From: Pseudomonas triclosanedens
GTDB taxonomy: Bacteria; Pseudomonadota; Gammaproteobacteria; Pseudomonadales; Pseudomonadaceae
DNA length: 64,000 bases
Direction of reading: 5' to 3'
Assembly: GCF_026686735.1 (NCBI RefSeq)
Contig: NZ_CP113432.1
Coordinates: 2,276,001 to 2,340,000 of the forward strand
Of the stretch, positions 14,993-63,486 are shown piece after piece (positions within the stretch are counted from its first letter, which is position 1; the number at the start of each line of letters is the position of its first letter). A program made the translations under genes and the position numbers. The notes beneath the pieces are model-generated. The model saw nothing but the letters and a program-made list of their open reading frames with translations, was not told the origin of the DNA and did no database searches.

Positions 14993-15283
14993 GTGAATTG
15001 CGTCAGTTCAGTTGTGCTGCCAGGGTTGTAGACCATCTAGAGGGCGTGCACGATCTTCAGGGTTGCATAGCTGATGCCGATTCTTCGCAGCAACTTGGTG
15101 CTGGCATGTAGAGTGGTCTACTGGAAGATCTGGCCTTTGCCCGTCAGCAGAATTTTGCTTGGCTCCCTGGATATTGATCTCCAGGTGAGGATCGCTGCCC
15201 TGGCCGATGATCGTCATGCTCTTGTTGGCAAAGTCTTCCAGCAAGAGAAGAGGGCTTGCGACATCTCATGCACTTCAATTTTG

Positions 15284-16132: not shown

Positions 16133-16234
16133 GCGGATAACCTCGGTTTGGCATGCTGAAAAAGTTATTAAAGAAAAAGCCAGAGGCAGCGAGTGCATGG
16201 CTTTGGGTCAATATAGTGCTGCGGTCTGGATAAA

Positions 16235-17707
16235 TCAATTTAGAAGTATGATCTTTGCCTTGCCTTCAGTAATGATTCGTATCAGTCTGTCATTTTCAAG
16301 CTTATCGTAAATCAGCTCTAAGTATTTTGGGTCTCCCCTCAGTCCGGAAGGGCAGTGTCGGCCAATATATGTTCTGTCAAATCTTCTGGAGCTGTCTTCA
16401 TCATATTTCGACCTTAGCCATGCGTGCAGCTCACTTGCATCATTTTCCAGTTTCGCTTCTGGACTAAACATTCTTTCGAATTGACGAGAGAACCAATATC
16501 CCAGCTCGATTGAAGCCCGCATGGTGGTTTCAGAAACGTCGCCTTCGCGTCCTTCAAATACGTGAAAATTTACTGCAAGCCTAAGCATAACTTCCGCAAG
16601 CTTTGAAGCATGATCTGGTGCCCAAGCATAACGCCCACCTTCCAGCATTTGTTTTTCTATTTCATTCCGGGTTTCTATCCATATTGCGGTAGCTCGATCT
16701 GACAAGCGAATTTCTTCACGGGCAAAATTGCCGCGAGAGAATTTTTCTACATAGGATTTATAAAGCTCAACGGTCCTAGCTCTAAACCGTTCGCAAGCCG
16801 ACCAGGTCTGCTCAGCCCCATCAAAAATTCTAGTACCTTGCGTGCTTTTAGAGTTGATAAATAAGCACCTTGCAAAAAAACCAGTCCCCCTTGCGGCCTC
16901 GCCCCGTTTGTTTTCGAAACTTTTCAGGGCGGATGGCTGAATCATTAAGCAAAGAGAAACCCTTACATCCGACAGGTAGTATGATTCTCGAGAGGCTCGC
17001 TCAACCCTTACGCCATCGCCACCCATAATTGCATTTAATTTGTCGAAGTGGTGGAAAGCGCTGCTATTCATTATTCCTGATGCCTCGCTCGATATCCATC
17101 CAGCGGACTGTAATCCACCATTCATATTTCCATACAGGGCTGGCTCTGTGGTGTCCTCGTAAAGAAAGCCGAGCTTCATCGGTTCTTTTGGTTCTTTTAA
17201 ATAATGATCGGATATGACCTCTATTATGTCGTCAGTATTTGCGCCGTCTTTTACTAAGCTTCTTAGCTCGGATTTATGGGCTTTTAAAATTTCCGACCAT
17301 ATTGCGTGCGCGTGTTTAAATTTCTTTAATTCCAAATCTCTATTGGCTAGAATTTCTTTTTGATAATTAAATAAGCCCCCTCCCATTTTATTTAAATACG
17401 GCGTTTTGCCCACTCCGGAACCGGCACTCACTATCAGCGGTAGTGATGTTGGGCATATCTGTCCAAGTGGTGACCGTGCATCGTGTAGTCCTTGAACAGA
17501 CAATGATATAAAGGAAATCGCTGTGCCAAGTGCTAGATCTTTTGGGTTTTTAATATTTCTGAAGCACTCATCAATTGCCTCTGAAGTAATTTCAAAGGGT
17601 AGAGCCGGTATTGGGTCATCAATCAAGTGCCTATTGCTTGCCTCTTTTGGTCCGAGTGGATGATGGTCCCAGGACGGCTGGGGTGCGGCCCTCTTATAGT
17701 CGATCAT
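16235..17707 (-). CDS. YfjI/DUF3987-family protein (primase-helicase-like ATPase)
   Basis: A 490-residue protein of the YfjI family found in P4-like satellites and genomic islands. The Walker A-like SAGSGVGKTPYLNKM lies near residue 92. FLYEDTTEPALYGNM and GWISSEASGIMNSSAF, followed by a Walker B/sensor area LSDVRVSLCLMIQP, are typical of DUF3987. No primase catalytic triad is evident. The ATG at 17707 has GGAGG upstream and overlaps the stop of the AlpA gene by 4 nt. The coupling of an AlpA-type regulator to YfjI suggests control of satellite excision or replication. Confidence 0.85.
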   Translation of the reverse strand: MIDYKRAAPQPSWDHHPLGPKEASNRHLIDDPIPALPFEITSEAIDECFRNIKNPKDLALGTAISFISLSVQGLHDARSPLGQICPTSLPLIVSAGSGVGKTPYLNKMGGGLFNYQKEILANRDLELKKFKHAHAIWSEILKAHKSELRSLVKDGANTDDIIEVISDHYLKEPKEPMKLGFLYEDTTEPALYGNMNGGLQSAGWISSEASGIMNSSAFHHFDKLNAIMGGDGVRVERASRESYYLSDVRVSLCLMIQPSALKSFENKRGEAARGTGFFARCLFINSKSTQGTRIFDGAEQTWSACERFRARTVELYKSYVEKFSRGNFAREEIRLSDRATAIWIETRNEIEKQMLEGGRYAWAPDHASKLAEVMLRLAVNFHVFEGREGDVSETTMRASIELGYWFSRQFERMFSPEAKLENDASELHAWLRSKYDEDSSRRFDRTYIGRHCPSGLRGDPKYLELIYDKLENDRLIRIITEGKAKIILLN

Positions 17708-17928
17708 CGAGCCTCCATTTTTTTCATCTCAACAAATTTAACGACCTCGCGTAGATCCCAGCCCACTGCGTAGCCTCCAATTTTGAATGGTTTTGGAAAG
17801 TCGGGATCGAACCACTTTGATTTCGGATCAACCCTCGAGTAAATCGTTGACCTGCTTATTCCAAGCATGTCTTGCAATCGCTTCACGCGAATGACCCTCA
17901 GTTCCTCGTCGTCAAATTTTTCTTTCAT
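17704..17928 (-). CDS. AlpA-family phage-type transcriptional regulator
   Basis: A 74-residue MerR-like winged-helix protein. It shows VKRLQDMLGISRSTIYSRV, then WFDPDFPKPFKIGGYAVGWDLREVVKFVE, the classic AlpA layout (RLxxVxxxxGxSRSTIYR...FPxPxxxGxRxVxWxxxEV). AlpA proteins activate integrase or excisionase genes in cryptic satellites. The ATG at 17928 follows GAGGAGACGCCCT; a TTG at 17943 inside this RBS is not credible. It is the first gene of the AlpA-YfjI unit. Confidence 0.9.
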   Translation of the reverse strand: MKEKFDDEELRVIRVKRLQDMLGISRSTIYSRVDPKSKWFDPDFPKPFKIGGYAVGWDLREVVKFVEMKKMEAR

Positions 17929-18570
17929 AGGGCGTCTCCTCAAGAAGCCCTAAGTTATCTATTTGGCGATCAAGAATTAGTGCGAGCGCTGAACGTTATT
18001 TATTTTTAAGCGGTAGGCTTGATTTTCTGTCTGGATTCTGGTTTGCATCTGGGTGTGTCGTTGCATGTGATGGATTAGTCTCGGGGTCTTGGGTTAATCG
18101 CGCGTGAAATGCCCCTATGGCCTCAGCCGAGTCGGCTGGCTAAGTGCTTGCGCGTTTAGGTCGATATCACGCGTTGGGGGGGGGTACCGACAAGCCATTA
18201 CTAAATTGGTCAGTGCGCGTCCGGCGTAACTTTTAGAGGGGAGGGCATCAGTCAGTGCTCTGTCGCGTGAGGAGCGTTAATGCCTGAGTGCAAAATCACC
18301 TGGATGCTCACCACAGAGTGGCCGCAGGAAAGCACCTTGGTTGGCTCCGCTGGTACGAGCGTTGCGCCAGAAATCCAACTGTCAACATGGCTGTTGTCGT
18401 CGTCACAGATACTGTTTTTTATAGCGCCACCCCCAGCTACCTGCTTCCTCAGCTTCTTATGAAGCTGAGGAAGCAAGTAGCTGGCAGTCATTCACTTAAT
18501 GAAATTTCAATTCGTCATTTTTTTGACAACACATAACTGCCATGACATCAGCACCAAGGAGGTTCGTTCC
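17929..18570. other. Long intergenic region, presumed control region of two divergent units
   Basis: A 640-bp gap between the AlpA gene (leftward) and the zinc-ribbon gene (rightward). It holds a run of eight or nine G at about 18178-18186 and the long hairpin at 18433-18484 listed separately. Several short open frames have no RBS and no recognisable product. It probably contains the AlpA-YfjI promoter and the promoter of the 18571-22740 gene set. Confidence 0.5.
18433..18484. repeat. Long near-perfect inverted repeat (24-bp arms, 4-nt loop)
   Basis: The left arm 18433-18456 and right arm 18461-18484 are complementary over 24 bp with one mismatch, closed by TTAT; the arms begin CCAGCTACCTGC and end GTAGCTGG. 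No T-run follows, so it is not a standard terminator. It sits 87 bp upstream of the zinc-ribbon gene. It could be an origin-type or cruciform element, a transposon-derived hairpin or an RNA structure; nothing in the sequence decides between these. Confidence 0.85.
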
Positions 18571-22809: not shown

Positions 22810-23091
22810 CTAACGCTTACCTGCTGCCTTGTAAGCTGTACTTCGTTCACGCTTGCTCACTGCGACCACCATCACAACCACCCGATCATCTTCGACCCGA
22901 TATACCAATCGATAGCTTGCTGTTCGGAGCTTGATCTTGTAGTGCCCAGGCAGATCCCTGAGGGCATCAGCCTGTACCTTTGGTGCTTCCAGCCGCTCAC
23001 CCAGTTTTTTCTTTGCCTGCTCACGCACCGTATGACCCAGCTTCTCCCATTCCTTCAGCGCTGAGGGCAGGAATTCGAGCTTATAGGTCAT
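22810..23091 (-). CDS. relE: RelE/ParE-family toxin
   Basis: A 93-residue toxin of type II systems. YKLEFLPSALKEWEKLG, LRDLPGHYKIKLRTASYRLVY and VVMVVAVSKRERSTAY are the RelE core, with Arg/Lys-rich catalytic strands (KIKLR, YRLVYRV) and the terminal Y. It probably cleaves mRNA at the ribosomal A site. It starts within the 3' end of the antitoxin gene (11-nt overlap), the usual antitoxin-first order. Confidence 0.92.
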   Translation of the reverse strand: MTYKLEFLPSALKEWEKLGHTVREQAKKKLGERLEAPKVQADALRDLPGHYKIKLRTASYRLVYRVEDDRVVVMVVAVSKRERSTAYKAAGKR

Positions 23092-23326
23092 CCAGGTTTA
23101 CCGGCACACCCTTCTCACCGGAGCGTACGTTAACGACATCGATCAGATCCAGATCGTCCAGACGTTCCAGCATCTGCTCGTACAGCTCGGCGGGCACCAT
23201 GTACCCCATCACGCGGTTATGATTGAGAACGGCGACCGGCATGCCCCCAGCACCAGCCATGACGCCAGTGGGGTTTTTCTTCAGCTCAGAAACGCTCACG
23301 GCAACGTCAGCCAAAACACTCTGCAT
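23081..23326 (-). CDS. relB: RelB/Phd-type antitoxin
   Basis: An 81-residue antitoxin. The N-terminal DVAVSVSELKKNPTGVM and PVAVLNHNRVMGYMVP form a Phd/YefM-type DNA-binding domain, and the acidic tail LDDLDLIDVVN would wrap the toxin. The ATG follows AAGGAG. Upstream, GGTCTT repeated at 23345-23350 and 23357-23362 could be the autoregulatory operator. The pair may stabilise the island. Confidence 0.9.
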   Translation of the reverse strand: MQSVLADVAVSVSELKKNPTGVMAGAGGMPVAVLNHNRVMGYMVPAELYEQMLERLDDLDLIDVVNVRSGEKGVPVNLDDL

Positions 23327-23514
23327 ACCATAGCTCCTTTTTTAGGTCTTTATTTTGGTCTTAAGGTGCATAGCATAGCAAGGCATCCCCATGAGCAATC
23401 TTCCGAATGGCAGGAGGATGCGTCCAGTTTTGAGCATCCGCCAATCTGACAGCACCGATAGCCCTTAGGCCTTTCATCCAGCTGTGAGTCTATGGGGATT
23501 GTGCTGACCGCTTG

Positions 23515-24219
23515 CTACCCCCGACTGGTATCGAAACTCCGCTGACGGTCACCAAAATACTTGGTCGCTTTCTTACACAGGTAGCTGGCTCGGAAGAACA
23601 GTTCATGGAGCTCATCAACCTTATCTCGACGGATTTCTCGATTGATAAAGTACTCAGGGTTCGGTGGTCTGTTAACCAACCCCCCAACCTGATCGATTGA
23701 TAATCCAAGTACACTTGCCCAAGACTCTTCAATTCGTCTGAACATATTGATCTTTTCCGATCGTAATAAGCCTAATTTGTAGTATGCGTCGCGATTTAAA
23801 AGAATCAACAGATGATAGTGCAGTCTACCTCCCTGGCCGATCTCTCTCGACCAGACGTACCGCACTTTGCAACCACGTGAGTAGCCGCGCTCAGCCACCC
23901 GATTCTGGTGGTACTTGATCTTTTTTGTAAATGACTCAAAGAACTTGGTTATGACCTTGTTCGTGTATGCATAGTCAGGTAGTTTAATTTTTTTAGGTAC
24001 GTAAAGATCCACTCTGAAAGCCAGGATCCTCGAGTAATCAGTCAGAGCCAAGTCGATAGTATGCTTGAGGGCGGAGAGGCTCTCTCGAATGAAAGGCCCC
24101 TTGTCACGCATTAGTTGGAAGCCTTCAAACGTGTCATCGTAGTGCAGGTGGAGGTTTTTATTATCAGGGTGTCTGAGTGGGTGGTGCGGTAAGGTATTAG
24201 TGTCGTTGAGCATGGTCAT
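23515..24219 (-). CDS. Inovirus-Gp2-like (YagK/YfjJ C-terminal-type) replication-related protein
   Basis: 234 residues. ILAFRVDLYVPKK, a C-rich/basic middle (YSRGCKVRYVWSREIG) and the HUH-like GGRLHYHLLILLNRDAYYKLG match inovirus-type Gp2 proteins found in satellites beside integrases. In phage f1 Gp2 is a rolling-circle nickase; here only the YagK/YfjJ-type domain is present. The gene lies alone upstream of the integrase on the same strand, with AT-rich non-coding DNA on both sides. ATGs at 24219 and 24213 are both possible. It may initiate replication of the excised element. Confidence 0.8.
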   Translation of the reverse strand: MTMLNDTNTLPHHPLRHPDNKNLHLHYDDTFEGFQLMRDKGPFIRESLSALKHTIDLALTDYSRILAFRVDLYVPKKIKLPDYAYTNKVITKFFESFTKKIKYHQNRVAERGYSRGCKVRYVWSREIGQGGRLHYHLLILLNRDAYYKLGLLRSEKINMFRRIEESWASVLGLSIDQVGGLVNRPPNPEYFINREIRRDKVDELHELFFRASYLCKKATKYFGDRQRSFDTSRG

Positions 24220-24511
24220 GAGCTCTATGGTTTAACTCATACTCAATAGGTGATTATTAATTTAAAAAATTCAATGGGCTGGATTGAGATTGGTCAATTG
24301 TGTTGTTGGGTTTTGGTGTTGTAAGGGGTTATTAATAAACATAATACTTGTGCCGCAATGTGTGGTGTATGAATTACGCGGCATTGCCTTATGTTTTTAA
24401 TGTAAAGTAAAAGTATTTTCATGATTTTAACTCCGAGTGTGGTTTCGGAATTAAATTATCTGCGCTAAGAGCTTTTTGGGGTTGGGGTGTCCTTGTAAGG
24501 CTAAGTATTAG

Positions 24512-25858
24512 CTACGTAGTATGGACAACTTTTCCCAGGTATTGACCAAGAGCTAACCAAGCTTCTGCCATTTCCTTGCTATAGCTGTGGCGTTGGTAGA
24601 TTCGTTTAACTTTATTTTCCTCGGTATGGTTGAGGCAGCGCTCCGCCACTTCTGGTAATACGCCGAGCGCCGTCATGATCGTGGCCCCAGTTCGCCTAAG
24701 ATCATGAGGAGTCCACTTTCCACCAGGGAGTAGCAGCGCCTGAGCATTCGCGCTTCTATTGCTCAGAGTCCCCTGGCCATGCATGCGTTGCCGATCACCA
24801 AGTTGTTTGGTTACTGTCTTTGAACAGACTGGTCCGCTGTTTTGGACGTTGGGATAGCACCACTCACTAGCAGTAGTGAATGCCCTGACTCTTTTGAACT
24901 GTTTGATGGCGAAAGGTGAGAGGGTTATGTTGTGGGCCTTGCCATTCTTGCTGTGATCGGCGGGAATGTGCCAGTTTGCTTTTTCAAGATCGACGTTTTC
25001 CCATCGTGCGTTCAGCAGCTCACCAATGCGGCAGCAGGTCGATAAAGCAATCCAGATTGCAGCCTCTGAGGATGGAAGCAGGCCAGCCTCAGGGGCGAGC
25101 TTTGCTAATGTGCGGATTTCCTCTTCGCTCAAAACGCGATCACGCTCGACCTCTTTGCCGCCTATCTTGGCTTTGCGAATGCTCGAAGTGGGGTCGTGAT
25201 CAATTAGGTCACGATCTACGGCGAACCTGAACATTTGTCGCATCAGACTGAAAATCATCTTCGCCATGCGATTAACGCCACGCGAGAGCAACGCATCAGT
25301 AACTTCTGTGATGTGACCTTTTTTCACGTCTTCGACTGCCAGCTTGCCGAGATAAGGCAAGACATCCTTTTCGAACATTCGGCGAACTTCTGCGCCGCCA
25401 TCCTTGCGGTTGATTAAGTCGACCTTGGCCCAGTGCTCGAACAAATGCTGGACGGTTTTTCTGGCTGCTTGTCGGGATTTGGCTTCCTCCAGTGCTGCTT
25501 GCTCCGCAGCAATCCGTGCAAGCTCGGCGTCGCGCGCTGCCACACGAGCAGCTTCCTCGGCTTCCAGATGCTCCTTCAAATCCCTGACTCCAGACTTATG
25601 GAGTCCTGCAAGCTCCTTCGCTCGCTGTCCTGCCTCTGCCAGGGTCATTGTGCCTTCGCTACCATCGCGGCTGTAGGTACCTATAGGGAAGGTGATGCGT
25701 TCACTGCTGCTATTTGTGTAGCGGAAATAAAAGAGTCGCTCGCCGCTGGGGGTTATTCGAGCTACCAGACTGCCATGCCCCCAGATGGCGACTTCGCTGA
25801 GCCACTTGTCGCTTGCGCCAGGTTTAGCCGTCATCTGGCGGTCTGTAATCTTGGCCAT
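24512..25858 (-). CDS. int: Tyrosine recombinase integrase, P4/CP4-type
   Basis: A 448-residue integrase. The start MAKITDRQMTAKPGASDKWL matches the family's N-terminal DUF4102 arm-binding domain; longer in-frame extensions to 26122 would read through the attachment site and are rejected. The catalytic domain shows STCCRIGELLNARWENV (Arg I), HDLRRTGATIM (HxxR) and HTEENKVKRIYQRHSY with the nucleophilic Tyr. Residues 80-130 form a coiled, Ala/Glu-rich linker. It sits 196 bp from the tRNA-Pro fragment at 26055-26099, so it is the recombinase of the island that extends leftward. Confidence 0.95.
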   Translation of the reverse strand: MAKITDRQMTAKPGASDKWLSEVAIWGHGSLVARITPSGERLFYFRYTNSSSERITFPIGTYSRDGSEGTMTLAEAGQRAKELAGLHKSGVRDLKEHLEAEEAARVAARDAELARIAAEQAALEEAKSRQAARKTVQHLFEHWAKVDLINRKDGGAEVRRMFEKDVLPYLGKLAVEDVKKGHITEVTDALLSRGVNRMAKMIFSLMRQMFRFAVDRDLIDHDPTSSIRKAKIGGKEVERDRVLSEEEIRTLAKLAPEAGLLPSSEAAIWIALSTCCRIGELLNARWENVDLEKANWHIPADHSKNGKAHNITLSPFAIKQFKRVRAFTTASEWCYPNVQNSGPVCSKTVTKQLGDRQRMHGQGTLSNRSANAQALLLPGGKWTPHDLRRTGATIMTALGVLPEVAERCLNHTEENKVKRIYQRHSYSKEMAEAWLALGQYLGKVVHTT

Positions 25859-53780: not shown

Positions 53781-53912
53781 ATGAAGAACTTGCTTGCCGT
53801 CATTGGTCTGGTCGTAGTGGTGAAGAAGGGCTACGAGCTGTATCGCGAATACAGCGAATTGAAGCGCGAGAAAGAGGGGCGCATGTCGGCCGCTTCGGAA
53901 TGCCCTGCATAA
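53781..53912 (+). CDS. 43-residue small protein with hydrophobic N-terminus
   Basis: MKNLLAVIGLVVVVKKGYEL, then YREYSELKREKEGRMSAAS. The first 13 residues form a short hydrophobic segment and the rest is a charged amphipathic helix, suggesting peripheral or single-pass membrane attachment. A good RBS (CAGGAG) lies 7 nt before the ATG, which is the main reason to accept it. It precedes the WYL regulator by 144 bp; the family is not recognised. Confidence 0.55.
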   Translation: MKNLLAVIGLVVVVKKGYELYREYSELKREKEGRMSAASECPA

Positions 53913-54056
53913 CGGGGCGAGTCGTGACGCAGGCGGAGCGGCAACTTGCCCGGCCTGTCATATGGCAAAACGCCACTTATCACGATAGGCTTGGCGTACC
54001 TCTGGCGCCAAATGGCTGACTGGCAAGCCGGAACTGGAAAATCTCAAGGTAGAACG

Positions 54057-55088
54057 ATGTCCGAAGCGAAGGATACGCTGCTCAGGCTGATTGCCCTCAT
54101 GCGCCTGATTCCCGAAGAGCCGCGGCGAATAGCAACCACTACTCTTCTGGAGAAACTCAAGGAGCGAGGATTCAGCGTTACCCTTCGCTCGGTCCAGCGG
54201 GATCTGGCACGGCTTCTCGGGCCGTGTTCGTTGCAGTGCGACACGGACGAGATCCCCTACCGCTGGAGTTTCATGCGGGACTGCAGGCCTGAGTTTGCGG
54301 ACATGGACCCGCCGACCGCGCTGGCGTTGTACCTCTCGGAGGACCATCTGAGCGGTACGCTGCCCCAGAGTGTCCTCGAACAGCTCGGGCCGCAGTTCCG
54401 TCGTGCTCGCAATTATCTCGACGGGCTTGGCCGCAACGGTTTGGCGCATTGGGCGCGCAGGGTTCGCTCGCTTCCCAATGGCAAGGCGTTGATGCCCGCC
54501 CCGCTGGCTTCCGGGGTATGGGCACAGGTGTCCGCTGCGCTGCTCGAAGGCCGCCAGTTGCAGGTCGAGTACCTGAGCCGGAGCAAGGAGGAGCTCAAGA
54601 GCCTGTGCATCCATCCGGTCGCTCTGGTCTCCCGTCACTCGATCACCTACCTGATCGGCACCGCAAACCGCTACGCCGATCTGAGGCAGTTCGCGTTGCA
54701 TCGGATGCAGTCGGCTGTCGTGCTCGATGCGCCCGCTACCGAGCACGCCGAATTCGACCTGGATCGCTACATCGCGGACGGCGCTTTTTCCTCGCGCCAG
54801 GCTGCGCATGAGGTGGAGCTGATCGCTGACGTCCATCCCCAACTTGCCTGGCTGCTGAACGAAACGCCGCTGAGCGAGCAGCAGAGTCTGCAGCCGCTGT
54901 CCGGCAGCAACTGGTTGCGCCTGCGCGCCCATGTTCCGCTCGATCAGGAGACTCTTTGGTGGATCTTCGGCCTCAACGATCAGATTCACGTTCACTCCCC
55001 GCAGGCATGGGTGGATGAAATCCGCCTGAAGCTGGAAAGCCTGCACCGCCTGTACTCAACACCACACGCGCGGGCGACGCCCCTTTAG
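54057..55088 (+). CDS. WYL-domain transcriptional regulator
   Basis: 343 residues. The N-terminal winged HTH (LLRLIALMRLIPEEPRRIAT, then LKERGFSVTLRSVQRDLARL) is followed by the WYL domain: LLEGRQLQVEYLSRSKEELKSLCIHPVALVSRHSITYLIG and LRQFALHRMQSAVVLDAP (the WYL motif region). A WCX-like C-terminus HVPLDQETLWWIFGLNDQIHV follows. WYL proteins sense a nucleic acid or nucleotide ligand and often control defence genes. The ATG at 54057 is preferred. It precedes the GTPase operon by 14-32 nt and probably regulates it. Confidence 0.92.
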   Translation: MSEAKDTLLRLIALMRLIPEEPRRIATTTLLEKLKERGFSVTLRSVQRDLARLLGPCSLQCDTDEIPYRWSFMRDCRPEFADMDPPTALALYLSEDHLSGTLPQSVLEQLGPQFRRARNYLDGLGRNGLAHWARRVRSLPNGKALMPAPLASGVWAQVSAALLEGRQLQVEYLSRSKEELKSLCIHPVALVSRHSITYLIGTANRYADLRQFALHRMQSAVVLDAPATEHAEFDLDRYIADGAFSSRQAAHEVELIADVHPQLAWLLNETPLSEQQSLQPLSGSNWLRLRAHVPLDQETLWWIFGLNDQIHVHSPQAWVDEIRLKLESLHRLYSTPHARATPL

Positions 55089-55120
55089 GGCGTGCCGCCG
55101 TCATGGAAACGGGATTTCCG

Positions 55121-55984
55121 ATGAAGCAACGGAAACAGAGACTCGCTCACCTGCAGGCTGCCTGCTGTGAGTTGTTGGATGCGGTCGAGGGCGGTAGCAA
55201 GCCTCGTATCGCGGCCTGGGGGCTGGTCAAGGCGGGCAAGAGCTCGCTGCTCAACATGCTGTCCGGGCATGTGGCCAAGGAGTTTTTCGCTACCGGGGTG
55301 GTGCGTACCACGCTGCGCAACAAGGAGCTGGAGACCGAGCGCTATGTGCTTGTCGATACGCCAGGGCTGGGCATCGACAAGCGCGACAGCGCGGAGGCCT
55401 TCAAGGGGCTGGATGCCGCTGATGTAACGGTCTTCGTCCATTCGCCGCCTGGTGAGCTCGATCAGGAAGAGATCGATTTGCTCGGTCAGGTCAATTCGGC
55501 ATACGGAGCGCAAACGGACCGTCGACTGGTGCTGGTTCTGAGCCAGTTGGACAAGTTCTCGGCACCTGACAGGGATCTCATCCGCACGCGCATTCTTGCG
55601 CAGATGCAGGAGTTCTTCGGGGTGCAGCCCGCGTGTTTCGAGGTCTCCAGTACGCGCTACGGCAAAGGTGTGAACGAAGGCAAAACGACGTTGGAGCTGA
55701 AAAGTGGCATTCCGGCCTTGCGCGACCATCTCGATGCCTTATCACAGGAAATCGAAGGCGAGATCGAAGGTGTGCGTGCTGTACGACGTGCCCAACGCCG
55801 GGCGGAAGTGCTGCGCGAGCTGGATGAGGCAATCGACGAGGAGCGAGCGCTGATTACCGGGCTACAGCAGCCATTCATCGAGAAGGTGCGTGATTTCAAC
55901 CTGATGATGGCCGAGTTGAGGCGGAGCTTCACTTCGCAAAAGGCGGATATCGATTACCTGCAGCGGAAGCTGGAAAACATTTAG
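55121..55984 (+). CDS. Small GTPase-like protein, divergent G4 motif
   Basis: 287 residues. P-loop GLVKAGKSS at 34-42, G3 DTPG at 79-82 and a G4-position SQLD at 141-144 instead of NKxD, so guanine specificity may be relaxed. The C-terminal third is helical and coiled (residues 210-287: EIEGVRAVRRAQRRAEVLREL and more), which resembles Era/dynamin-like helical tails. ATG at 55121; an in-frame ATG at 55103 is also possible. First GTPase of the operon, 14-32 nt after the WYL gene. Function not known; a P-loop GTPase with a helical tail suggests membrane or filament binding. Confidence 0.8.
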   Translation: MKQRKQRLAHLQAACCELLDAVEGGSKPRIAAWGLVKAGKSSLLNMLSGHVAKEFFATGVVRTTLRNKELETERYVLVDTPGLGIDKRDSAEAFKGLDAADVTVFVHSPPGELDQEEIDLLGQVNSAYGAQTDRRLVLVLSQLDKFSAPDRDLIRTRILAQMQEFFGVQPACFEVSSTRYGKGVNEGKTTLELKSGIPALRDHLDALSQEIEGEIEGVRAVRRAQRRAEVLRELDEAIDEERALITGLQQPFIEKVRDFNLMMAELRRSFTSQKADIDYLQRKLENI

Positions 55985-55998
55985 AGAGGGACTCGTCC

Positions 55999-56601
55999 AT
56001 GCCATTACCCTGGCTTATCGGGGCGGCTGTTGTGGCCGCCACGGCCGCCGTGATCAAGGCTGTCTCCGACGATGACAGCAGCAGTTCGTCTTCTTCCTCC
56101 AGCGCCGGCGCAGCCGAGCGTCAGAGGCAGGAACGCGAAGCCAGTCGCCAGCGCGAGCGTGGAGCGCTGGAAGCCCAACTGGCGGGCAAGAGGAAGAGTC
56201 AGCTCGAAGAAGCGAGCGCCTATCTGGCGTGCTCGCTGGAGGCCCTGGGCAAGGCACCGGACTCGATTGGCGGGCTGAGTTGCGAGCGATTCCAGGATGC
56301 CTTGAAGGCCGATGCTGCGGCCGACTTCGAATATGCGCAGTTGCTGAGTACGGCTTTGCGCTGCAATGGCGCGGAGCAAGACGCCAACGTTGCCAGGGAG
56401 CTGGATAGCGCCCTCGGAAATCTGCTGGTGCTGGAGCGTCTGTTCCTGGGCGGGCAGACCTCGCGGTTACCGGAGGCCGAGCGGCAGGCTGCGATCGAAC
56501 TCAGCAAGTCCGAGCGAAAGGACCTGGACAAGATTCTCGCAGCCGATGAGCGTCTTGAGGCGCTGCGGTCGCTCAAGCAACAGATCCAAGCACAGGGATA
56601 G
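55999..56601 (+). CDS. Membrane-anchored coiled-coil protein
   Basis: 200 residues. The N-terminal hydrophobic helix LPWLIGAAVVAATAAVIKAVS is followed by a Ser-rich linker (DDDSSSSSSSSSAGAAE) and a long charged alpha-helical region (RQRQEREASRQRERGALEAQ and beyond) that predicts coiled coil. No known domain. Within the tight GTPase operon (14 nt after the GTPase gene, 8 nt before the next), it may be a membrane scaffold for the GTPases. Confidence 0.7.
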   Translation: MPLPWLIGAAVVAATAAVIKAVSDDDSSSSSSSSSAGAAERQRQEREASRQRERGALEAQLAGKRKSQLEEASAYLACSLEALGKAPDSIGGLSCERFQDALKADAAADFEYAQLLSTALRCNGAEQDANVARELDSALGNLLVLERLFLGGQTSRLPEAERQAAIELSKSERKDLDKILAADERLEALRSLKQQIQAQG

Positions 56602-56609
56602 TTGGTGCC

Positions 56610-58379
56610 ATGCAGGAAAAATCCGTTTCACGTAGCGAGCTGATGGCGTCCTTCGAGGCGCTGCAAGGGCAGTTCGATCAGCAGACGAGCGATATTCGCA
56701 GCAAGGAGGCGGCCTTCGACCAATTGCGCCGCGACTTCGCCAGCCAGTTGAACTTGCGCAGCAAGGAGCTGAGCCGACTGATTGGTTCGGGCAATCCATT
56801 GCAGCCGCTCGCCAACGGCCTTGCCGATCAGTTGGCGGCCACTTTCGATGGTTGGGAGAAACAGGTTGCCAACCGAGCCAAAGGTACCCGGTTCCGCGAG
56901 GGCTTCGGCGACTCGTTGCTGGTGTTCATCTATGGCAAGGTCAAGTCCGGCAAGAGTTCGCTTGGGAATTACATGGCCTGGGGGCACAGCGAGCCCAGCG
57001 CTGAACTCAAGGCGCAGGCGTTGCCGCCGAGTTACTTCTCCGAAGAGCGCACGGCTGTGGTCAGCGGTGACCAGGAAAAGGAGGCTGAAACAAACCGGCA
57101 GTTCCGCGTTGGAGCGACCGAGGCTACCAGTTCCATCCAGGGCTTCCGGCTGCCAGGTCTGACCTGGGTTGACTCACCGGGGCTGCACTCGGTCAACGGC
57201 AGCAACGGCGACCTGGCGAAGGAGTACGTCGAGCACGCCGATCTCATTCTCTACACGATGAGTTCCCAGGCACCGGGGCGTGCATCGGATATGAAAGAGA
57301 TCACAGAGCTACTCGATAACGGCAAGAAAATCATGGTGTTGCTGACAGGTAGCGATACCCCTGATGAAGACGAGGACGCCGACGGAAACCTCATCAGTAC
57401 AGTCATCATGAAGAGTGAGTCGGACCGCCGGGAACAGGTGGCCTATGTGCGTAACGAGCTTGAGCAGCTTCATGCCAGTTCTGGCGTTCTGGCTGAGGTT
57501 CTACCTGTTTCGACGCGCTTCGCCGAACTCAACCCAACGCCTGAAGGTGAAGCCGCGAGTGGCATGGGCAGGCTGATGCACGAATTGCAGAGCATCTGCA
57601 CCAGCCAGGCTCTGGCCATCAAGCTGGAGGCGCCGATGAACAATCTGCGGCGCTCGATCCGAACCACTGCCGGTGATCTGGCCGGAGTGCGGGAACTGAT
57701 CGATGGCTTCGCCTCCGGCGTCTCCGCGCAGGATGGCACCCTGCAGCGCCTGCTGGCGAACCTTGGCGTAAAAGGGGCGAGCCAGATGCGCGGCTACATC
57801 AACCAGCTTTTCGCTGAAAATCGCTTTGACGATCTTGAAGGCGCGCTGCGCAGGAAGGCCGGCGAGATCATCGGGGAACTCGCAGAGGAGGCCTTCGAGA
57901 AGATCGGCGAACAGCAGCAGAAGACATTCCGCGATGCTTTCGACAGCAGCCGCCTGGGCGCCATTCCCGAGTATCGGGAGATCGTCGAGGAACGGGAGTA
58001 TTTCGTCGGTACTCGCAAGGGCAGCAAGAAGACACTCGGTGCCATCGGCGCGCTCGTGGGCGGTGGCATCGGGCTGTTCTTCGGCGGGCCGGCCGGTGCC
58101 GCGCTGGGGGCGTCGCTGGGCAGCATGGCAGGTATGGGCGGAAGCTCGGCCCGCGCTGAGTACGGCCGCCATGATGTCGTGGTCGGCGACAACCGCGAGG
58201 ATCAACGCCAGTCGGCGATGGCGAATTACGCGGGCACGCTTCCGGGCGCGCTTTCGGAGTATGTCAACGCGCGCTACAACCCGCTCCGCAGCGCCATGCA
58301 GGAGTATTGCAAAGTCCTGGATGGCGACGTGACAGCGCTGATGGGCAGTCTCGAGAAACTTTCGCAGGTGGATAGATGA
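56610..58379 (+). CDS. Dynamin-like GTPase with C-terminal glycine-zipper segment
   Basis: 589 residues. N-terminal coiled region to about 90; P-loop GKVKSGKSS at 109-117; G3 DSPG at 188-191; G4-position TGSD at 256-259 instead of NKxD. The helical segment after 320 is stalk-like. A Gly/Ala-rich hydrophobic hairpin (AIGALVGGGIGLFFGG, then PAGAALGASLGSMAGMGG, about residues 477-511) could insert in membrane. This combination matches bacterial dynamin-like proteins. Its stop overlaps the start of the third GTPase (ATGA), implying stoichiometric co-expression. Confidence 0.82.
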   Translation: MQEKSVSRSELMASFEALQGQFDQQTSDIRSKEAAFDQLRRDFASQLNLRSKELSRLIGSGNPLQPLANGLADQLAATFDGWEKQVANRAKGTRFREGFGDSLLVFIYGKVKSGKSSLGNYMAWGHSEPSAELKAQALPPSYFSEERTAVVSGDQEKEAETNRQFRVGATEATSSIQGFRLPGLTWVDSPGLHSVNGSNGDLAKEYVEHADLILYTMSSQAPGRASDMKEITELLDNGKKIMVLLTGSDTPDEDEDADGNLISTVIMKSESDRREQVAYVRNELEQLHASSGVLAEVLPVSTRFAELNPTPEGEAASGMGRLMHELQSICTSQALAIKLEAPMNNLRRSIRTTAGDLAGVRELIDGFASGVSAQDGTLQRLLANLGVKGASQMRGYINQLFAENRFDDLEGALRRKAGEIIGELAEEAFEKIGEQQQKTFRDAFDSSRLGAIPEYREIVEEREYFVGTRKGSKKTLGAIGALVGGGIGLFFGGPAGAALGASLGSMAGMGGSSARAEYGRHDVVVGDNREDQRQSAMANYAGTLPGALSEYVNARYNPLRSAMQEYCKVLDGDVTALMGSLEKLSQVDR

Positions 58380-60022
58380 TGCAGCAAAGTGTTTTGTCCC
58401 AGGCTTTCCAGACCTTCGATGCGATCGAGGGGATCTGCGAGAAGTACAACCCGTCCGGTCTCGCGCCCATTCGCGAGATGGTCGCGCAGCGGCGCGCTTC
58501 TCCGGCCGCCTCGATCATGGTGTATGGCGTTTATAACGCCGGTAAGAGCACGCTGATCAACGCACTGCTCGGGGAGGCCGATCGAGCCAAGGTGGCCGAC
58601 AGGCCGGAAACCGACAAGGTAAGCAAGTATCAGTGGCGCGAGTTCGAGATTCTCGATACACCCGGTATCGATGCGCCTATCCAGCACGAAGAGGTTACCC
58701 AGGCTCAACTGCATTCGACCGATGTGGTGATTTTCGTGGTCAATCCACTGGGCGTGGTGGAAGAGGCCGGGACGCTGTCGACGCTGCTGGATCTGGTGGA
58801 GCGCCGGAAGAAGATCGTGTTGGTGCTCAACTGCAAGAACAAGCTCGAGCCGATGGATGCCGAGCGAATCAAGGATGAGCTGCGTCAACGCCTCCAGGGC
58901 ATGGCGGCGCAGAAGGGCCTGCACGAGGTTCTGCAGTTCATTCCGATTCTTGAGGTGAATGCCAGGACGGCCCTGAAGGCGAAGGTGGAGGGCAAGCAGA
59001 ACCTGCTGGCCAGTTCCGGTCTGCCGTTGCTGGAGCGTGAGCTGTACAAGTTCCTCAGCTCTGTTGACCAGCAGGATATCGTCCGGGCATTCGTCAGCGA
59101 GCTGACCGGGCTTCTCGACGAGACGCTGCGTCTGCTCGATCAGCAGAGCGACTCTGCCTCCACTGCGAGGATCGATGAGTTCTATGCGGACATTGCCCGT
59201 CGCGAAATGGACCTGCGGGCCAGCCTGAAAGCGTTGGCCGATGCGCGGTCCGCCTTCGTCGAAAAACGTGCCTTCAGCATCATTTCCAGCTCCCAGGATA
59301 ACGCCCAGGAGCGGATTGCTGAATTGGTGCAAAGCGCCGGTAGCGAGCTGCTTGCCGAGCTGGAAAGCGAGCTTCGACGGCTGGTTGTCGATGCGTCGGT
59401 ATTGCTCGACGAGATGCTGGAGAGCGTCCGTGTCAGTGCGCAGATGGCGCCTGTGGATGCCGATCTGGATCTGCCGCCTGACGAAGAGGCGCCCGAGGCG
59501 GAAGCCAAGGGGCCGGGCATCGACCTCAGCGCGCTGGAAAGCGGCGTTCAGCAGATTGGGGGAATGCTCAAGCCCGACCATGTCGTCAGTGTACTGAAGC
59601 TGGGCAAGGAGCTGCTGCCCAGCCTGTTCAAGGGTATCGGTCCGGTGACGATGGGCAAGATCGGTGAGCAGATAGTCGGCAAGATCGTGCCGGCCATTGG
59701 GCTCGCCTACCAGGCAGGGCAGGTGCTGTATTCGCTGTTTGCCGGCGACCCGGAGGAAGAACGCGTGCGCCAGGATGCGCTCAGGCGCGAGCAGCAGGAG
59801 GAGCGCAGGAACCAGGCGATCCGTGAGCTGAGCGAGAGCATTGCCTGGGAGTTTCGCAGCACCCTCGTCAAGGTTATCGACGAGAGCATCCGGAGCAATT
59901 TCGCCGAGGTCAACGACAAGCTGAAGGCGATTCGCGGCAGCTTCAGCGTTGCCCAGCGTGAGCGCTGCGAGGACCGGACGAGCCTGGTGCAGGCGCAGAC
60001 AATCCTGAAGGCTTATGTCTGA
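58376..60022 (+). CDS. Dynamin/Era-like GTPase
   Basis: 548 residues. P-loop GVYNAGKST at 51-59 (the YNAGKST sequence of dynamin-like and Era-like GTPases), G3 DTPG at 94-97 and G4 NKLE at 155-158, close to canonical NKxD. The C-terminal half is largely helical, with an acidic linker near 360-380 (DLDLPPDEEAPEAEA). A Gly-rich hydrophobic patch (KIVPAIGLAYQAGQVLYSLF) near 437 could contact membrane. Coupled to the preceding GTPase gene. A pair of adjacent, non-identical dynamin-like proteins is typical of bacterial systems acting as hetero-oligomers (family knowledge). Confidence 0.82.
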   Translation: MMQQSVLSQAFQTFDAIEGICEKYNPSGLAPIREMVAQRRASPAASIMVYGVYNAGKSTLINALLGEADRAKVADRPETDKVSKYQWREFEILDTPGIDAPIQHEEVTQAQLHSTDVVIFVVNPLGVVEEAGTLSTLLDLVERRKKIVLVLNCKNKLEPMDAERIKDELRQRLQGMAAQKGLHEVLQFIPILEVNARTALKAKVEGKQNLLASSGLPLLERELYKFLSSVDQQDIVRAFVSELTGLLDETLRLLDQQSDSASTARIDEFYADIARREMDLRASLKALADARSAFVEKRAFSIISSSQDNAQERIAELVQSAGSELLAELESELRRLVVDASVLLDEMLESVRVSAQMAPVDADLDLPPDEEAPEAEAKGPGIDLSALESGVQQIGGMLKPDHVVSVLKLGKELLPSLFKGIGPVTMGKIGEQIVGKIVPAIGLAYQAGQVLYSLFAGDPEEERVRQDALRREQQEERRNQAIRELSESIAWEFRSTLVKVIDESIRSNFAEVNDKLKAIRGSFSVAQRERCEDRTSLVQAQTILKAYV

Positions 60023-60311
60023 TGAACAGCGCAGCTTTCCCTGCAATCAGTGCGGGGAGTGCTGCCGGCGCGTCCATTTGTTGAAGGAAACCGCGGCGCT
60101 GGATCGTGGTGATGGTACCTGCGTGCATTTTGATGAAGGGCAGCGCACGTGCCGCATCTACGACGAGCGCCCGGATATCTGCCGGGTCGATCGGCAATAC
60201 GAGACGATTTATCGGCAGGTCATGTCATGGGCTGAGTTCAGCGAGTTGAACCAGGCGGCTTGCAGAATGCTTCAAGGCGGCGATGTGCTGCACGACCGCG
60301 AGCAGGGCTGA
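60015..60311 (+). CDS. YkgJ-family cysteine-cluster protein
   Basis: 98 residues with CNQCGECCRR at 11-20, C35, C45 and C55 (GTCVHFDEGQRTCRIYDERPDICRVD), the YkgJ/Zn- or Fe-S-binding Cys signature. The start overlaps the stop of the GTPase gene by 8 nt. YkgJ proteins bind zinc or iron-sulfur and their roles are mostly unknown; co-translation with the GTPases suggests a linked role. Confidence 0.85.
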   Translation: MSDEQRSFPCNQCGECCRRVHLLKETAALDRGDGTCVHFDEGQRTCRIYDERPDICRVDRQYETIYRQVMSWAEFSELNQAACRMLQGGDVLHDREQG

Positions 60312-60338
60312 GCGGGTAGCAAAGAGGAGTCACCATCG

Positions 60339-61082
60339 ATGGGTATCACATACAGGCCGGATGACGATCTGGCTTTCCTTCAATATTGCTCGGAAGAGGA
60401 TATTCGCCAGTTGGCTACCTATCTCGTCCATGACAAGGATGGGAGCGAGCGGATTGCCAGTGAGATCAAGAGCAATCCCGCGTTTACGTGCCTCGACGGC
60501 CAGCCCGATCAGTGGCGCAAGTCGTGGAAGCTGGTTGCCGGGGAGCTTCAGCATTTTGGCGGCGACAGCCTGGTCAACCTGTTCCGGCGAACCGGGGTTT
60601 TCTACCGGGAGATCCTTGGCGATGTCTGCGACAAGATGAAGGTGAAGTACGCCAGGAACAGCTCCGCCTACGACATCGAGAATGCGCTGATCGAGCGCCT
60701 GGTCGAGCTCTCCTGGGAGAAAATGTCGGAGGCTGAGCGGCTGGAGGCGTTGAAGCGGCTCAATATGGCCGGCCATGCGGCGCCGGATTGGCAATCGATT
60801 CTCGACATGATCCGGGGCAAGGGGCGCGGCTCCTTCGAATGGTCCTCCTGGCTTGCTGATTCCGCGCGTTCTCTTTTCTCTCCTTTCAGTGTTGCGAATA
60901 TCGGTATCGCGGCTGCTTCCGGCTTCGTGGCCCAGCGCGGTGTGGCAGTCGTTGCCGGCCCGCTGGCCGCCGTTGCGCTGGCCGTGCCGCTGTTTACCGG
61001 CGCCGCGTACCGCGTGACCATGCCGGCGGCGATACAGATTGCTTACATGCGCCGTAAATACGAACTGAAGGATCGCTTCTGA
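60339..61082 (+). CDS. YaaW-like (UPF0174) protein
   Basis: 247 residues, clearly homologous to E. coli YaaW: DDDLAFLQYCSEEDIRQLATYLVHDKDGSERI, the invariant KSWKLVAGELQHFGGDSLVNLFR and the C-terminal hydrophobic hairpin ending AYRVTMPAAIQIAYMRRKY. Residues 150-235 contain Gly/Ala-rich membrane-prone segments. Cellular function is unknown. ATG behind GAGGAG; the stop overlaps the next ATG (TGATG). YaaW-type proteins recur near GTPase genes, which supports a functional link here. Confidence 0.9.
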   Translation: MGITYRPDDDLAFLQYCSEEDIRQLATYLVHDKDGSERIASEIKSNPAFTCLDGQPDQWRKSWKLVAGELQHFGGDSLVNLFRRTGVFYREILGDVCDKMKVKYARNSSAYDIENALIERLVELSWEKMSEAERLEALKRLNMAGHAAPDWQSILDMIRGKGRGSFEWSSWLADSARSLFSPFSVANIGIAAASGFVAQRGVAVVAGPLAAVALAVPLFTGAAYRVTMPAAIQIAYMRRKYELKDRF

Positions 61083-61975
61083 TGAACGCTACTGCAGAGT
61101 TGATGGAGAAAATCTGGGTAATCGACGAGGCCGCTCTGTCCAGGGACCTCGTCGATGCGCTGGCCCAGGGCAAGGCAGTCATTCACGACGGCGTGGCCTA
61201 TTGGGCCAAGGGGAGCGGCCAGAGTGGCATCATCCAGCACCTGCCGTTCAAGGAAACGATGGTCAAGTCGGCCGAGGAGGCGATCAAGGCTGCGCAGATG
61301 ACCACTGTGATGGCCGCAGCGGCTTCGACCTGCATCATCCTCGGCGCGCTGATCATCCAGACCAGGTATCTGGCGGCGAAGCTGGATCGGATCCAGGACA
61401 CCGTGGATGAGATTTCCCGGGACCTGCATGCTCAGAACATCATTTACTACATGGACAAGGTCACCGATTACATCGGCGGCATCGAGGTTGCACGAACCCT
61501 GCTCAGCGACCGAGAGCTGGCGCATGAGATCAAGGATATCGCCTGCCCGTTGCTCGCCTCGGCAGCCGCCAAGCGCAATCATGCGCTCTCGTTCATCGAT
61601 AACGTGCTCAACCTGGCACGCAGCACCGGCGAGCTGACCAACAAGCACTACGAACTCGTCGTCAATTTCGCTCACATGATGCTGGAGATACTCCCCCTCG
61701 GTATGCACACCGAGTACCTGCTGGCATCGCGTATCGGCAAACCCCGCCTGGCCGAGCAGATCCTGCTTGATGGCGCCAAGCGTTATGACGGCGCCATGCA
61801 GCTCTACAAGGGGTTCCTCAACGAGCAGCACCGCAAGCTGGTGCGCGGTAGCCTCGGTGACAAGGCCGAGATTTTCCACCGGATCGAGCATCGGGCGGAG
61901 CAAATGATCCGCTCCGAGGAGAGCCGTCTGCTGCTCTCGCTCCCCAATGGACGCATCGAGTCGCTGGCTGCATAA
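61082..61975 (+). CDS. Membrane-anchored protein of unknown function
   Basis: 297 residues with one strongly predicted transmembrane helix at about 72-93 (MTTVMAAAASTCIILGALII), followed by a long helical cytosolic or periplasmic domain (AAKLDRIQDTVDEISRDLH and beyond). Fold not recognised. Translationally coupled to the YaaW-like gene. It probably forms part of the same membrane assembly. Confidence 0.75.
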   Translation: MNATAELMEKIWVIDEAALSRDLVDALAQGKAVIHDGVAYWAKGSGQSGIIQHLPFKETMVKSAEEAIKAAQMTTVMAAAASTCIILGALIIQTRYLAAKLDRIQDTVDEISRDLHAQNIIYYMDKVTDYIGGIEVARTLLSDRELAHEIKDIACPLLASAAAKRNHALSFIDNVLNLARSTGELTNKHYELVVNFAHMMLEILPLGMHTEYLLASRIGKPRLAEQILLDGAKRYDGAMQLYKGFLNEQHRKLVRGSLGDKAEIFHRIEHRAEQMIRSEESRLLLSLPNGRIESLAA

Positions 61976-62155
61976 ACGAGGAGCTGCAGCGAGTTGCGGC
62001 GTGATCATCGGAGCGTGGTGGCCAGTGGCGCTTCATCCGATGATTGCGCTGCCTGGCGATGGGCATTTCCGCCGTGCAAGCCGCGGCCAGCCCAAGACGC
62101 TCGCTGCCGTACGACCGAGCCGGGCTGGCTCGCATTCATATCCTGGGGAGATCAA

Positions 62156-62362
62156 ATGCCTGTTCCTATGCGGCCCTTCGTCCTGCAATGCGGCGCATGC
62201 CGGTGGCACCGCACGGTCATACCTCGCAGCGACGTCTTGTTTCCCGGTGAGTGGGTGGAAAGTTGCCCCTATTGTGGCTCGCTCTCCATCGAGCGTCGTC
62301 CAGCCTCAGGGGCAGAGATACTGGCGGCGCGCGTCAAGCACTGGATTGCTCCGCGCTCCTGA
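62156..62362 (+). CDS. Small zinc-ribbon protein
   Basis: 68 residues. CGAC and CPYC (each C-x2-C) form a zinc ribbon; between them WHRTVIPRSDVLFPGEWVE. ATG at 62156 behind GGGGAGA. It is the last gene of the operon in this orientation, separated from the previous gene by 180 bp, so its membership is probable but not certain. Confidence 0.7.
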   Translation: MPVPMRPFVLQCGACRWHRTVIPRSDVLFPGEWVESCPYCGSLSIERRPASGAEILAARVKHWIAPRS

Positions 62363-62376
62363 GATGGAGCCGGTTG

Positions 62377-63486
62377 CTATTGCAGTGTGAATTCGCGAAG
62401 TAACTGAAGCAGGTAGTCGACGATCTTCCCGGCGGGAATGTCAGCGTCCTTGTTCGTGCGACCTCGAATGCCCGGTAGCGGCTCCGCGTAGTGCTGGCTC
62501 CGCAGGCAGCTAAGCTCCTGCAGACGCATCCTGGAGGGCATGCACGGGGCCGTTTCGGATAGCAGCAGGCAGAGGATGAGCGTTTCGCGTAATGCGCCGC
62601 GGGGTCGGCGGTCACTGGACCTGGCCGTTGCCTCGAACAGCTTGAGCAGGAAACATTCGAGATGGAACAGCTCCTCATCGCTCAGTTGATGCCGTTGGCT
62701 GATCGATACTCGTACGTGGCAGTCGAAGCGCGAATTCTTGTCGATGGAGGGGAGGTACTCGTTGGCGGCTTCCCATACATCGAGCTGTATCCCCTCGATG
62801 GCGAATTCGAATGTCTTGAGCGCTCCCTCTTCACGCGTGGGGCTGCGGTACAGCATGACCGTAAGGGGGGAGGGCTCGCGTGAAGTGGTTTCCCTCGCCT
62901 CCACCGTGCTGCAGAAATCGAGATATTCCAAGTCGCTCAGTGCCTGCACTACGGCCTGCATCAACTGCGTACGGTAGTCCTTGTTTGACTCTCCCTGCTG
63001 ATTGAAGATGTGGCCGTCGGTTTCCTTGACCTCTCCAAGCAGTTGACGCAAAGGCGCAGCGGTTTGGGAATACCAGTTGCGTAGCGCATGCGTAATTCCG
63101 GGCGGCTCGTCGAGTGGGACGTTATCGGTCTGGGCGGCAGCGGAAGCGGACTCGCCTTGCTTGTATTGAGCAGCTTTGAGTGAGGCCTGATGCTGCCGTT
63201 CGAGCGCTTTGATGTTTTTGACCAGATCGCCGCGTATCGCAAGATTCCCCAGCCGCATTTGACCGGCGGGTGCGTCATTGAAACGGGCGACAGGCACACG
63301 TACGTCGTCGCCCAGCAATTGATCGCACCAGGCGGCGAAAGTCATGTCCCGAGCTGCTTTCGCCGGCACCACGCCTTTTATCACCCGGTCCAACTGTTCA
63401 TTGTTCAGGCTGGAGAAGTCCGCTAGAACACCGTACTTCTTCAGTGCGCTCAGTTGTGCGGCTCTGATTTTTCTTGATTGACTCAA
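62377..63486 (-). CDS. Protein of unknown function, convergent to the GTPase operon
   Basis: 369 residues, not recognised. It is mainly helical, with a Gln/Ala-rich linker near residues 115-125. No signal peptide, transmembrane helix or catalytic motif is evident. It lies on the minus strand between the GTPase operon and the WYL-like gene at the right edge. In the same orientation as that gene and 194 bp downstream of it, it may be co-transcribed. Confidence 0.7.
   Translation of the reverse strand: MSQSRKIRAAQLSALKKYGVLADFSSLNNEQLDRVIKGVVPAKAARDMTFAAWCDQLLGDDVRVPVARFNDAPAGQMRLGNLAIRGDLVKNIKALERQHQASLKAAQYKQGESASAAAQTDNVPLDEPPGITHALRNWYSQTAAPLRQLLGEVKETDGHIFNQQGESNKDYRTQLMQAVVQALSDLEYLDFCSTVEARETTSREPSPLTVMLYRSPTREEGALKTFEFAIEGIQLDVWEAANEYLPSIDKNSRFDCHVRVSISQRHQLSDEELFHLECFLLKLFEATARSSDRRPRGALRETLILCLLLSETAPCMPSRMRLQELSCLRSQHYAEPLPGIRGRTNKDADIPAGKIVDYLLQLLREFTLQ

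Follow-up and report, generated by a model that had tools for sequence, protein, structure and literature searches.

A dynamin-like GTPase module joined to the jumbo phage killer pair JukAB in an operon of Pseudomonas triclosanedens

The described systems closest to the operon reported here are the jumbo phage killer pair JukAB, Eleos, which we take to be the LeoA/LeoBC system, and the bacterial dynamins, among them BDLP1, the Campylobacter structures 5owv/5oxf (5owv presumably being that of a dynamin-like pair) and DynA of Bacillus subtilis, for which we know of no operon of this kind. According to a 2026 review (PMC13282480), JukA recognises proteins that the phage makes early, inside the early infection vesicle, on which JukB forms tetrameric pores. 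LeoABC of enterotoxigenic Escherichia coli is laid out as LeoA plus a LeoBC that is split or fused (PMC4159319). DynA, a dynamin-like protein with an antiphage effect (PMC8844932), differs from the present set in being a single fused protein (PMC4159319). Here we analyse a 64,000-nt stretch of Pseudomonas triclosanedens DNA (assembly GCF_026686735.1, contig NZ_CP113432.1, positions 2,276,001-2,340,000), hereafter the window, in which an operon at 53781..62362 carries JukAB directly behind genes for three GTPases (G1, G2 and G3), a coiled-coil protein (CC) and a YkgJ-type protein. With moderate confidence we read it as two defence modules in one operon, a dynamin-like membrane machine (module 1) and JukAB (module 2).

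The JukAB part of the operon is already known. The gene at 60339..61082 (+ strand, 247 aa), which an earlier sequence-only reading of the stretch had called a YaaW homologue, matches the PADLOC model of the jumbo phage sensor JukA (PDLC04113; 272 bits, E=1.1e-81, residues 1-243) and Pfam DUF3944 (46.8 bits), and the description 'YaaW of unknown function' was dropped for it. Its neighbour at 61082..61975 (+ strand, 297 aa), previously listed as a membrane-anchored protein, is the vesicle pore-former JukB (PADLOC PDLC04115; 417 bits, E=1.1e-125) and aligns with the solved JukB chain 9jht over residues 10-285 (E=7.7e-37), its hydrophobic stretch lying within the alignment. The jukA gene precedes jukB and adjoins it with a 1-bp overlap at 61082, as also in L017, L067, L025 and L036 (L numbers denote compared loci), with a 13-bp gap in L022. 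JukA further matches phrog_13238 in PHROGs (6e-29; function unknown there), and a single phage record carries it, at 34% identity. The adjoining genes, their overlap and the 9jht alignment are shared with Juk as described, whereas the GTPase module and WYL gene upstream on the same strand set this locus apart, a pairing that the available part of PMC13282480 does not mention.

Upstream of JukAB on the + strand, module 1 begins with G1 (55103..55984, 293 aa), a small stand-alone GTPase scoring 41.2 bits against MMR_HSR1 and 27.0 bits against Dynamin_N, the latter right at the cut-off (27). It is followed by CC (55999..56601, 200 aa), a membrane-anchored coiled-coil protein with the N-terminus MPLPWLIGAA, an acidic/serine linker and long helices, and by G2 (56610..58379, 589 aa), a dynamin-like GTPase that scores 43.6 bits against Dynamin_N (cut-off 27) and has a hydrophobic segment rich in glycine at residues ~480-511. 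G3 (58376..60022, 548 aa) is a dynamin/Era-like GTPase with a helical C-terminal part (MMR_HSR1 60.1 bits, Dynamin_N 42.7 bits), and the YkgJ-type CxxCxxCC protein (60015..60311, 98 aa) matches PF03692 at 34 bits (cut-off 23). A gene for a WYL-WCX transcription regulator (54057..55088, + strand, 343 aa; Pfam WYL 54.6 bits and WCX 33.2 bits, both above cut-off) ends 14 bp before G1; further gaps are 14 bp (G1-CC), 8 bp (CC-G2) and 27 bp (YkgJ-JukA), and G2/G3 and G3/YkgJ overlap by 4 and 8 bp. All nine larger open reading frames (ORFs) share the + strand and have no internal stops. The coupled run noticed in the sequence-only reading is real from WYL to JukB; the start at 53781 belongs to a separate 43-aa peptide, and the zinc ribbon gene, lying 180 bp off, is not coupled. 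The two modules, on one strand, are probably also on one transcript. A scan of the region gave no promoter-like sites and 4 terminator-like sites vs 6.3 in shuffles, and an Rfam search returned zero matches.

To place module 1 we compared 22 loci carrying G2 and G3: the window itself and others drawn from the genome collection (L002-L005), from the family to which the window belongs (L013-L018 and L060-L067) and from plasmids (L019-L021). The same place was counted once (L011/L017/L024/L026/L048 are one place in genome G727, and L012/L018/L056 another), the loci are not independent (~13 groups by eye on the tree, with close kin in L004/5, L013/14/17/67, L015/64, L018/66 and L060-63), and two-GTPase loci of a more distant kind from Acinetobacter (L027, L028), Diaphorobacter (L029) and Caballeronia (L032, unannotated) were kept apart. 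The order G1-[CC position]-G2-G3 is present in 20 of the 22, the exceptions being L017, where the N-terminal half of G2 is lost together with G1 and CC, and L021, which is without G1. YkgJ stands behind G3 in 13/22 loci, overlapping it by 4 or 8 bp. Other genera show this gene order too, at ~28-65% protein identity, which is more than chance would give. In L003 (9986-13236), a Comamonadaceae metagenome-assembled genome, G2 is split into two ORFs, with its N- and C-terminal parts ~1.4 kb apart.

Pairwise distances within G1, G2 and G3 are strongly correlated (Mantel r=0.93-0.98, with 0/5000 permutations as high for every pair) across 11 representative loci, obtained by omitting L017 and L021 (without G1) and L003 (G2 as two ORFs) and reducing the remaining 19 to one per group. 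Judged from these distances, the three GTPases are inherited jointly as one unit; descent of the whole operon accounts for the correlation, which therefore speaks for joint inheritance and is no proof of contact. By gene order, G1-CC-G2-G3(-YkgJ) is a conserved unit, separate from JukAB. All eight products named by the sequence-only reading are not conserved together, and its single assembly of eight is not supported, JukA and JukB being a known pair that occurs alone (L022, L025 and L036) and is unseen in 19/22 GTPase loci. WYL adjoins G1 in only 2/22 loci, the window and L002 (59% identity), and cannot be called a dedicated regulator.

The P-loop GK[ST] and DxPG motifs are kept in every row of the G1, G2 and G3 alignments. 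G1 of the window has the P-loop GLVKAGKSS and DTPG; in G2, G109, G114-S116 and D188-G191 are invariant (29 rows) and the glycines at 480-511 are conserved; in G3, G51-T59 and D94-G97 are invariant (10 rows). The canonical G4 motif is [NT]KxD. Two of the three GTPases had been said to have lost NKxD, but in the window it is canonical in 0/3, with SQLD in its place in G1, TGSD in G2 and NCKN in G3. Relatives of G1 carry SQLD, SKIE, SKAD, THAE, THAD, TGAE or TQIE; those of G2 chiefly TGSD, with TRCD, TASD, TQSD and PASD also seen and a canonical fit in L018 (TKSD); and G3 has N-x-K-x in 12/14 rows, with NYED in L018 and NAFD in L020 (the comparison takes the L003 G2 row up to its split and leaves out the L017 remnant). 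As aligned, then, G4 deviation is common in all three GTPase families, with exceptions, and their nucleotide specificity may be relaxed. Because the P-loop and DxPG are intact, G1-G3 are probably active, and the earlier suggestion of two pseudo-GTPases was rejected as unlikely on the same grounds, all three window GTPases deviating at G4.

CC has 69 relatives at E<=0.001, part of them matching a short portion only. Its N-terminus is nearly invariant: in a 25-row alignment M1 and L3-G8 (seven of residues 1-8) and also D25 are fixed. A CC-like ORF of 137-200 aa with a hydrophobic N-terminus lies between G1 and G2 in 12/12 module loci inspected, and in each an acidic or serine-rich linker and then a charged remainder follow. 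In the three annotated comparison loci of the two-GTPase family, the GTPase genes overlap with nothing between them, hence no CC gene. When the 69 CC relatives were set against the best 120 of 683 G2 relatives, longest contigs of the same size coincided 17 times, as expected if both genes share contigs. The AlphaFold2 model of CC has separate helices at 5-20, 36-82 and 170-199 (mean pLDDT 67.7, pTM 0.33).

Module 1 resembles Eleos/LeoABC in its tandem dynamin-like GTPases and membrane-anchored part. With PADLOC, G3 matches LeoA at E=2.6e-38 (residues 32-529, full length) and G2 matches LeoBC at 6e-16, a model that also matches in 14/14 control genomes; against NCBIfam LeoA NF041922 (cut-off 325 bits), G3 and G2 reach 34.9 and 26.5 bits, far below. 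Here there are three whole GTPases, each with its own P-loop and DxPG, a separate GTPase-free anchor (CC) and YkgJ. We rejected plain Eleos membership, given the NCBI LeoA cut-off and the LeoABC layout; module 1 is distantly related to Eleos/LeoABC, differently built, and looks like a dynamin set. Profile searches of the PDB link G2 to BDLP1 2j68 (E=1.5e-6) and G3 to 5owv (E=1.1e-12), a likeness to bacterial dynamin pairs, from which the present set differs in its extra small GTPase, anchor and cysteine-cluster protein, in its unusual G4 and in G3 being nearer Der. GTPase Der chains score better still with G3 (to 1.9e-20), so that it takes Pfam, LeoA and 5owv jointly to place it among the dynamins. 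Open-licence literature, with few subscription papers or preprints, gave no account of the five-gene module. Hence, of the undescribed system that the sequence-only reading had proposed, module 1 is apparently still undescribed, and the YaaW and membrane-anchored products are the known JukA and JukB. Ophion is reported to co-occur strongly with Juk, and module 1 may already have been described.

JukAB stands 10-27 bp behind YkgJ, on the same strand, in 3/22 loci: the window, L017 (G727) and L067 (G982). L067 repeats G1-CC-G2-G3-YkgJ-JukA-JukB complete, with its GTPases at 48-51% identity. L014 and L017 represent one and the same operon, 93% identical in DNA over 2700 bp, and share the gene that follows it; JukAB is absent from the former and present in the latter. 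On the JukB tree the window falls in one clade and L017 and L067 in another, which also holds L025 and L036, two loci free of GTPases; for G3 the window is nearest L002, and L017/L067 group with L013/L014, with no JukAB in L002, L013 or L014. The simplest reading seems to be that JukAB entered the position after YkgJ on two or more separate occasions, and an alternative of one joining followed by several losses may also apply; it counts against the former that the trees are printed without support values and that their other JukB sequences come without known gene context. In a 398-genome sample of the genus, JukB is present in 4, a strong G2 in 12 and both in 2 (hypergeometric 0.0048, taking both searches to cover the same 398 and leaving six G2-profile genomes at E 1e-7 to 1e-3 out of the 12 by a cut of our choosing), a test of co-occurrence only, defence genes clustering regardless. 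In both of these genomes module genes lie immediately upstream of JukB, as a whole module in G982 and a truncated one in G727.

The slot behind YkgJ has other occupants. A fourth GTPase, its P-loop recognised by eye, lies 2-36 bp behind YkgJ in L060-L063 (L060:11196-12347, L061:11648-12775 and L062:11548-12666 on the + strand, L063:4086-5204 on the - strand), and relatives of it lie upstream of G1 in L018 and L066; L002 has a DUF1232-like gene (by eye) and L004 and L005 a GNAT gene in the slot. This slot accepts differing cassettes, JukAB among them, and the repeated joining suggests a coupling of the two modules. A profile search of the other module loci for JukA and JukB found none, except for a short JukA-like match in L013. 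There an alpha/beta hydrolase gene (L013:12256-13710, - strand; DUF726 45.6 bits), 176 bp upstream of G1, contains a JukA-like stretch (PADLOC JukA 2.8e-8) of ~70 residues, with BLASTP values of 1e-4 to 1e-3 and 0.001 with our own profile; it may be a Juk effector of lipase type that is linked to module 1.

G2 occurs in 1/25 genus genomes, 6/398 family genomes and 37/72,556 plasmid records, and JukB in 1/369 class genomes, 3/398 family genomes and 1 plasmid record; the genome that holds the window is the single G2 hit in the genus, one of the six G2 hits in the family and the single JukB hit in the class. Such rare, patchy presence marks both the module and JukAB as accessory. Of the 37 plasmid records 29 are from Klebsiella/Raoultella/Citrobacter, and the three opened (L019, L030 and L031) all have the order GTPase-small gene-dynamin-GTPase; six of the other 8 were opened, L020 and L021 belonging to the 22 loci and L027, L028, L029 and L032 to the two-GTPase kind. 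In all, 683 G2 relatives fall within the E-value, the best 120 of them at >=37% identity, membership in this module being not certain for all. No match was found for G2 among viral contigs, for the Lelliottia and Klebsiella versions in a close-match search of E. coli genomes, or for module 1 in PHROGs beyond weak or unknown-function hits.

The proposed defence link is in keeping with part of the surroundings. On a Photobacterium plasmid (L020:10678-15373) the module is flanked by Csm6/Cas1/Cas2 on one side and RAMP CRISPR genes on the other, with two more annotated GTPase genes upstream; TrlF is near the module in 3/3 opened Klebsiella-type plasmids, with an S-4TM effector in one; type III restriction-modification is present in L067; and L061 and L063 have proteins with MkoA-like parts nearby. 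Nine of 18 chosen neighbours match PADLOC (1e-5), two of them weakly, three of the 18 belonging to the JukAB-only L025. Surroundings elsewhere also include metabolic and regulatory genes, and one locus has a relaxase and transposases.

The function of module 1 is likely to be antiphage membrane remodelling. CC would anchor the module in the inner membrane through its near-invariant N-terminal stretch, and its helices would gather G1, G2 and G3 into a hetero-oligomer. In it, G2, which has the glycine-rich hydrophobic segment, would pair with G3 as the working dynamins, and G1 would have a regulatory part. Binding and hydrolysis of nucleotide would power assembly on a phage-disturbed membrane and then its remodelling, by scission, tubulation or sealing. 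In module 2, going by the mechanism in PMC13282480, JukA would sense phage proteins within the vesicle of early infection, which JukB would perforate. If module 1 is antiphage, it would be a mobile defence of dynamin type, apparently not yet described, that has its own anchor and three co-inherited GTPases, and it would offer an approachable example of bacterial dynamins that form hetero-oligomers.

Several observations weigh against this two-module reading. JukAB is absent in 17/20 module loci with a visible downstream side (in L016 and L065 the sequence ends <700 bp past G3, where absence cannot be judged), and the module is absent in 3/6 JukAB loci, L022, L025 and L036 having JukAB without GTPases in 16-21 kb. 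In L017 the module is eroded, with G1, CC and half of G2 gone, and JukAB is intact, and between the best 120 JukB and 120 G2 clusters listed there are zero longest contigs of the same size. Nine of the 18 chosen neighbours are without any PADLOC match, and those of L004 are non-defence genes (GNAT, lipocalin, MlrA, transporter). The best PDB profile matches of G3 are Der GTPases rather than dynamins, and confidence in the CC model is low, lowest at the proposed anchor (residues 1-30 mostly at pLDDT <50). A weaker form of the two-module reading, which we regard as nearly as likely as not, is that two unrelated defence systems are stacked in a defence island and share at most transcription. The presence and absence of JukAB between identical flanks in L014/L017, the three JukAB loci lacking GTPases and the further defence systems nearby all agree with it; the identical slot and orientation at very short spacing in two lineages do not. 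A role for module 1 in envelope maintenance or vesicle release, as proposed for LeoABC, is distinctly unlikely: leo knock-outs had about half of a vesicle-borne reporter protein (PMC4159319) and part of the neighbours are non-defence, but the distribution is sparse and mobile (1/25 genus genomes, 37/72,556 plasmid records) and the context once CRISPR.

Since JukAB is a known pair standing beside a membrane-linked dynamin-like set, the operon may encode a composite defence aimed at the membranes of phages. A stronger form of the two-module reading, which we consider somewhat unlikely, is an anti-jumbo-phage machine whose two parts share one lipid target, the early infection vesicle: JukA would recruit or license a GTPase assembly that constricts, cuts or seals the vesicle, and JukB would perforate it. 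Pointing to it are the position of JukAB, always 10-27 bp past YkgJ with strand and order unchanged, in two lineages which, by the trees, acquired it separately, the module genes directly upstream in 2/4 JukB genomes of the genus sample (hypergeometric 0.0048), the JukA-like hydrolase 176 bp upstream of G1 in L013, which has no JukAB, and the membrane-directed nature of both modules. However, either module occurs without the other, the JukA-like stretch of L013 is short and weak, the slot also holds a fourth GTPase, a DUF1232-like gene or GNAT, and the hypergeometric value, with its author-chosen cut-off, speaks to co-occurrence among genes that cluster anyway. We hold to be unlikely the particular version with fixed roles at the vesicle, namely marking by JukA, constriction or severing by the GTPase assembly and perforation by JukB. 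Immunity-related GTPases break pathogen vacuoles, and a composite of this kind, if true, would by analogy be their bacterial counterpart. The joining of JukAB to module 1 makes it testable whether bacteria turn dynamin-like machines on phage-made lipid compartments.

Outside the two modules, the start of the WYL gene was re-set to 54057, where AAGGTAG precedes it and homology begins, within a longer TTG-initiated ORF from 53946. The two-CxxC zinc ribbon (62156..62362, + strand, 68 aa) is a loose companion, its start likewise re-set within a longer TTG ORF from 61994 to the ATG at 62156 with GGGGAG ahead of it; this start, 180 bp past JukB, uncouples it from JukB. Its relatives, which span 66-91 aa, are found in L002, L013, L017, L018 and L060-L063, in the last four 121-136 bp upstream of G1. 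The 43-aa membrane peptide with one hydrophobic stretch (53781..53912, + strand) is a companion gene, probably outside the machine; at E<0.01 it matches in 8 loci at 7 distinct places (L013, L015, L016, L017=L024, L018, L060 and L064), and its relatives thus recur in several of the same islands, near the zinc ribbon in L013 and L018. A 215-217 aa protein with a conserved RNQ[LMI][IM]HGG motif, reminiscent of HEPN nucleases, is found near the module in L002, L013 (6248-6898), L015, L018, L060 and L064, in some of them beside WYL or the zinc ribbon; the one copy tested had no Pfam or PADLOC match. A 369-aa ORF just 3' of the operon (window 62377-63486, - strand) and a 1785-aa ORF just downstream in L033 (1382-6739, - strand), which has a 1731-aa ORF antisense to it, are also without Pfam or PADLOC matches. 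Elsewhere in the window G+C dips to 0.44-0.48 at 15000-18000 and 23000-25000, vs ~0.6 around, which suggests other acquired DNA.

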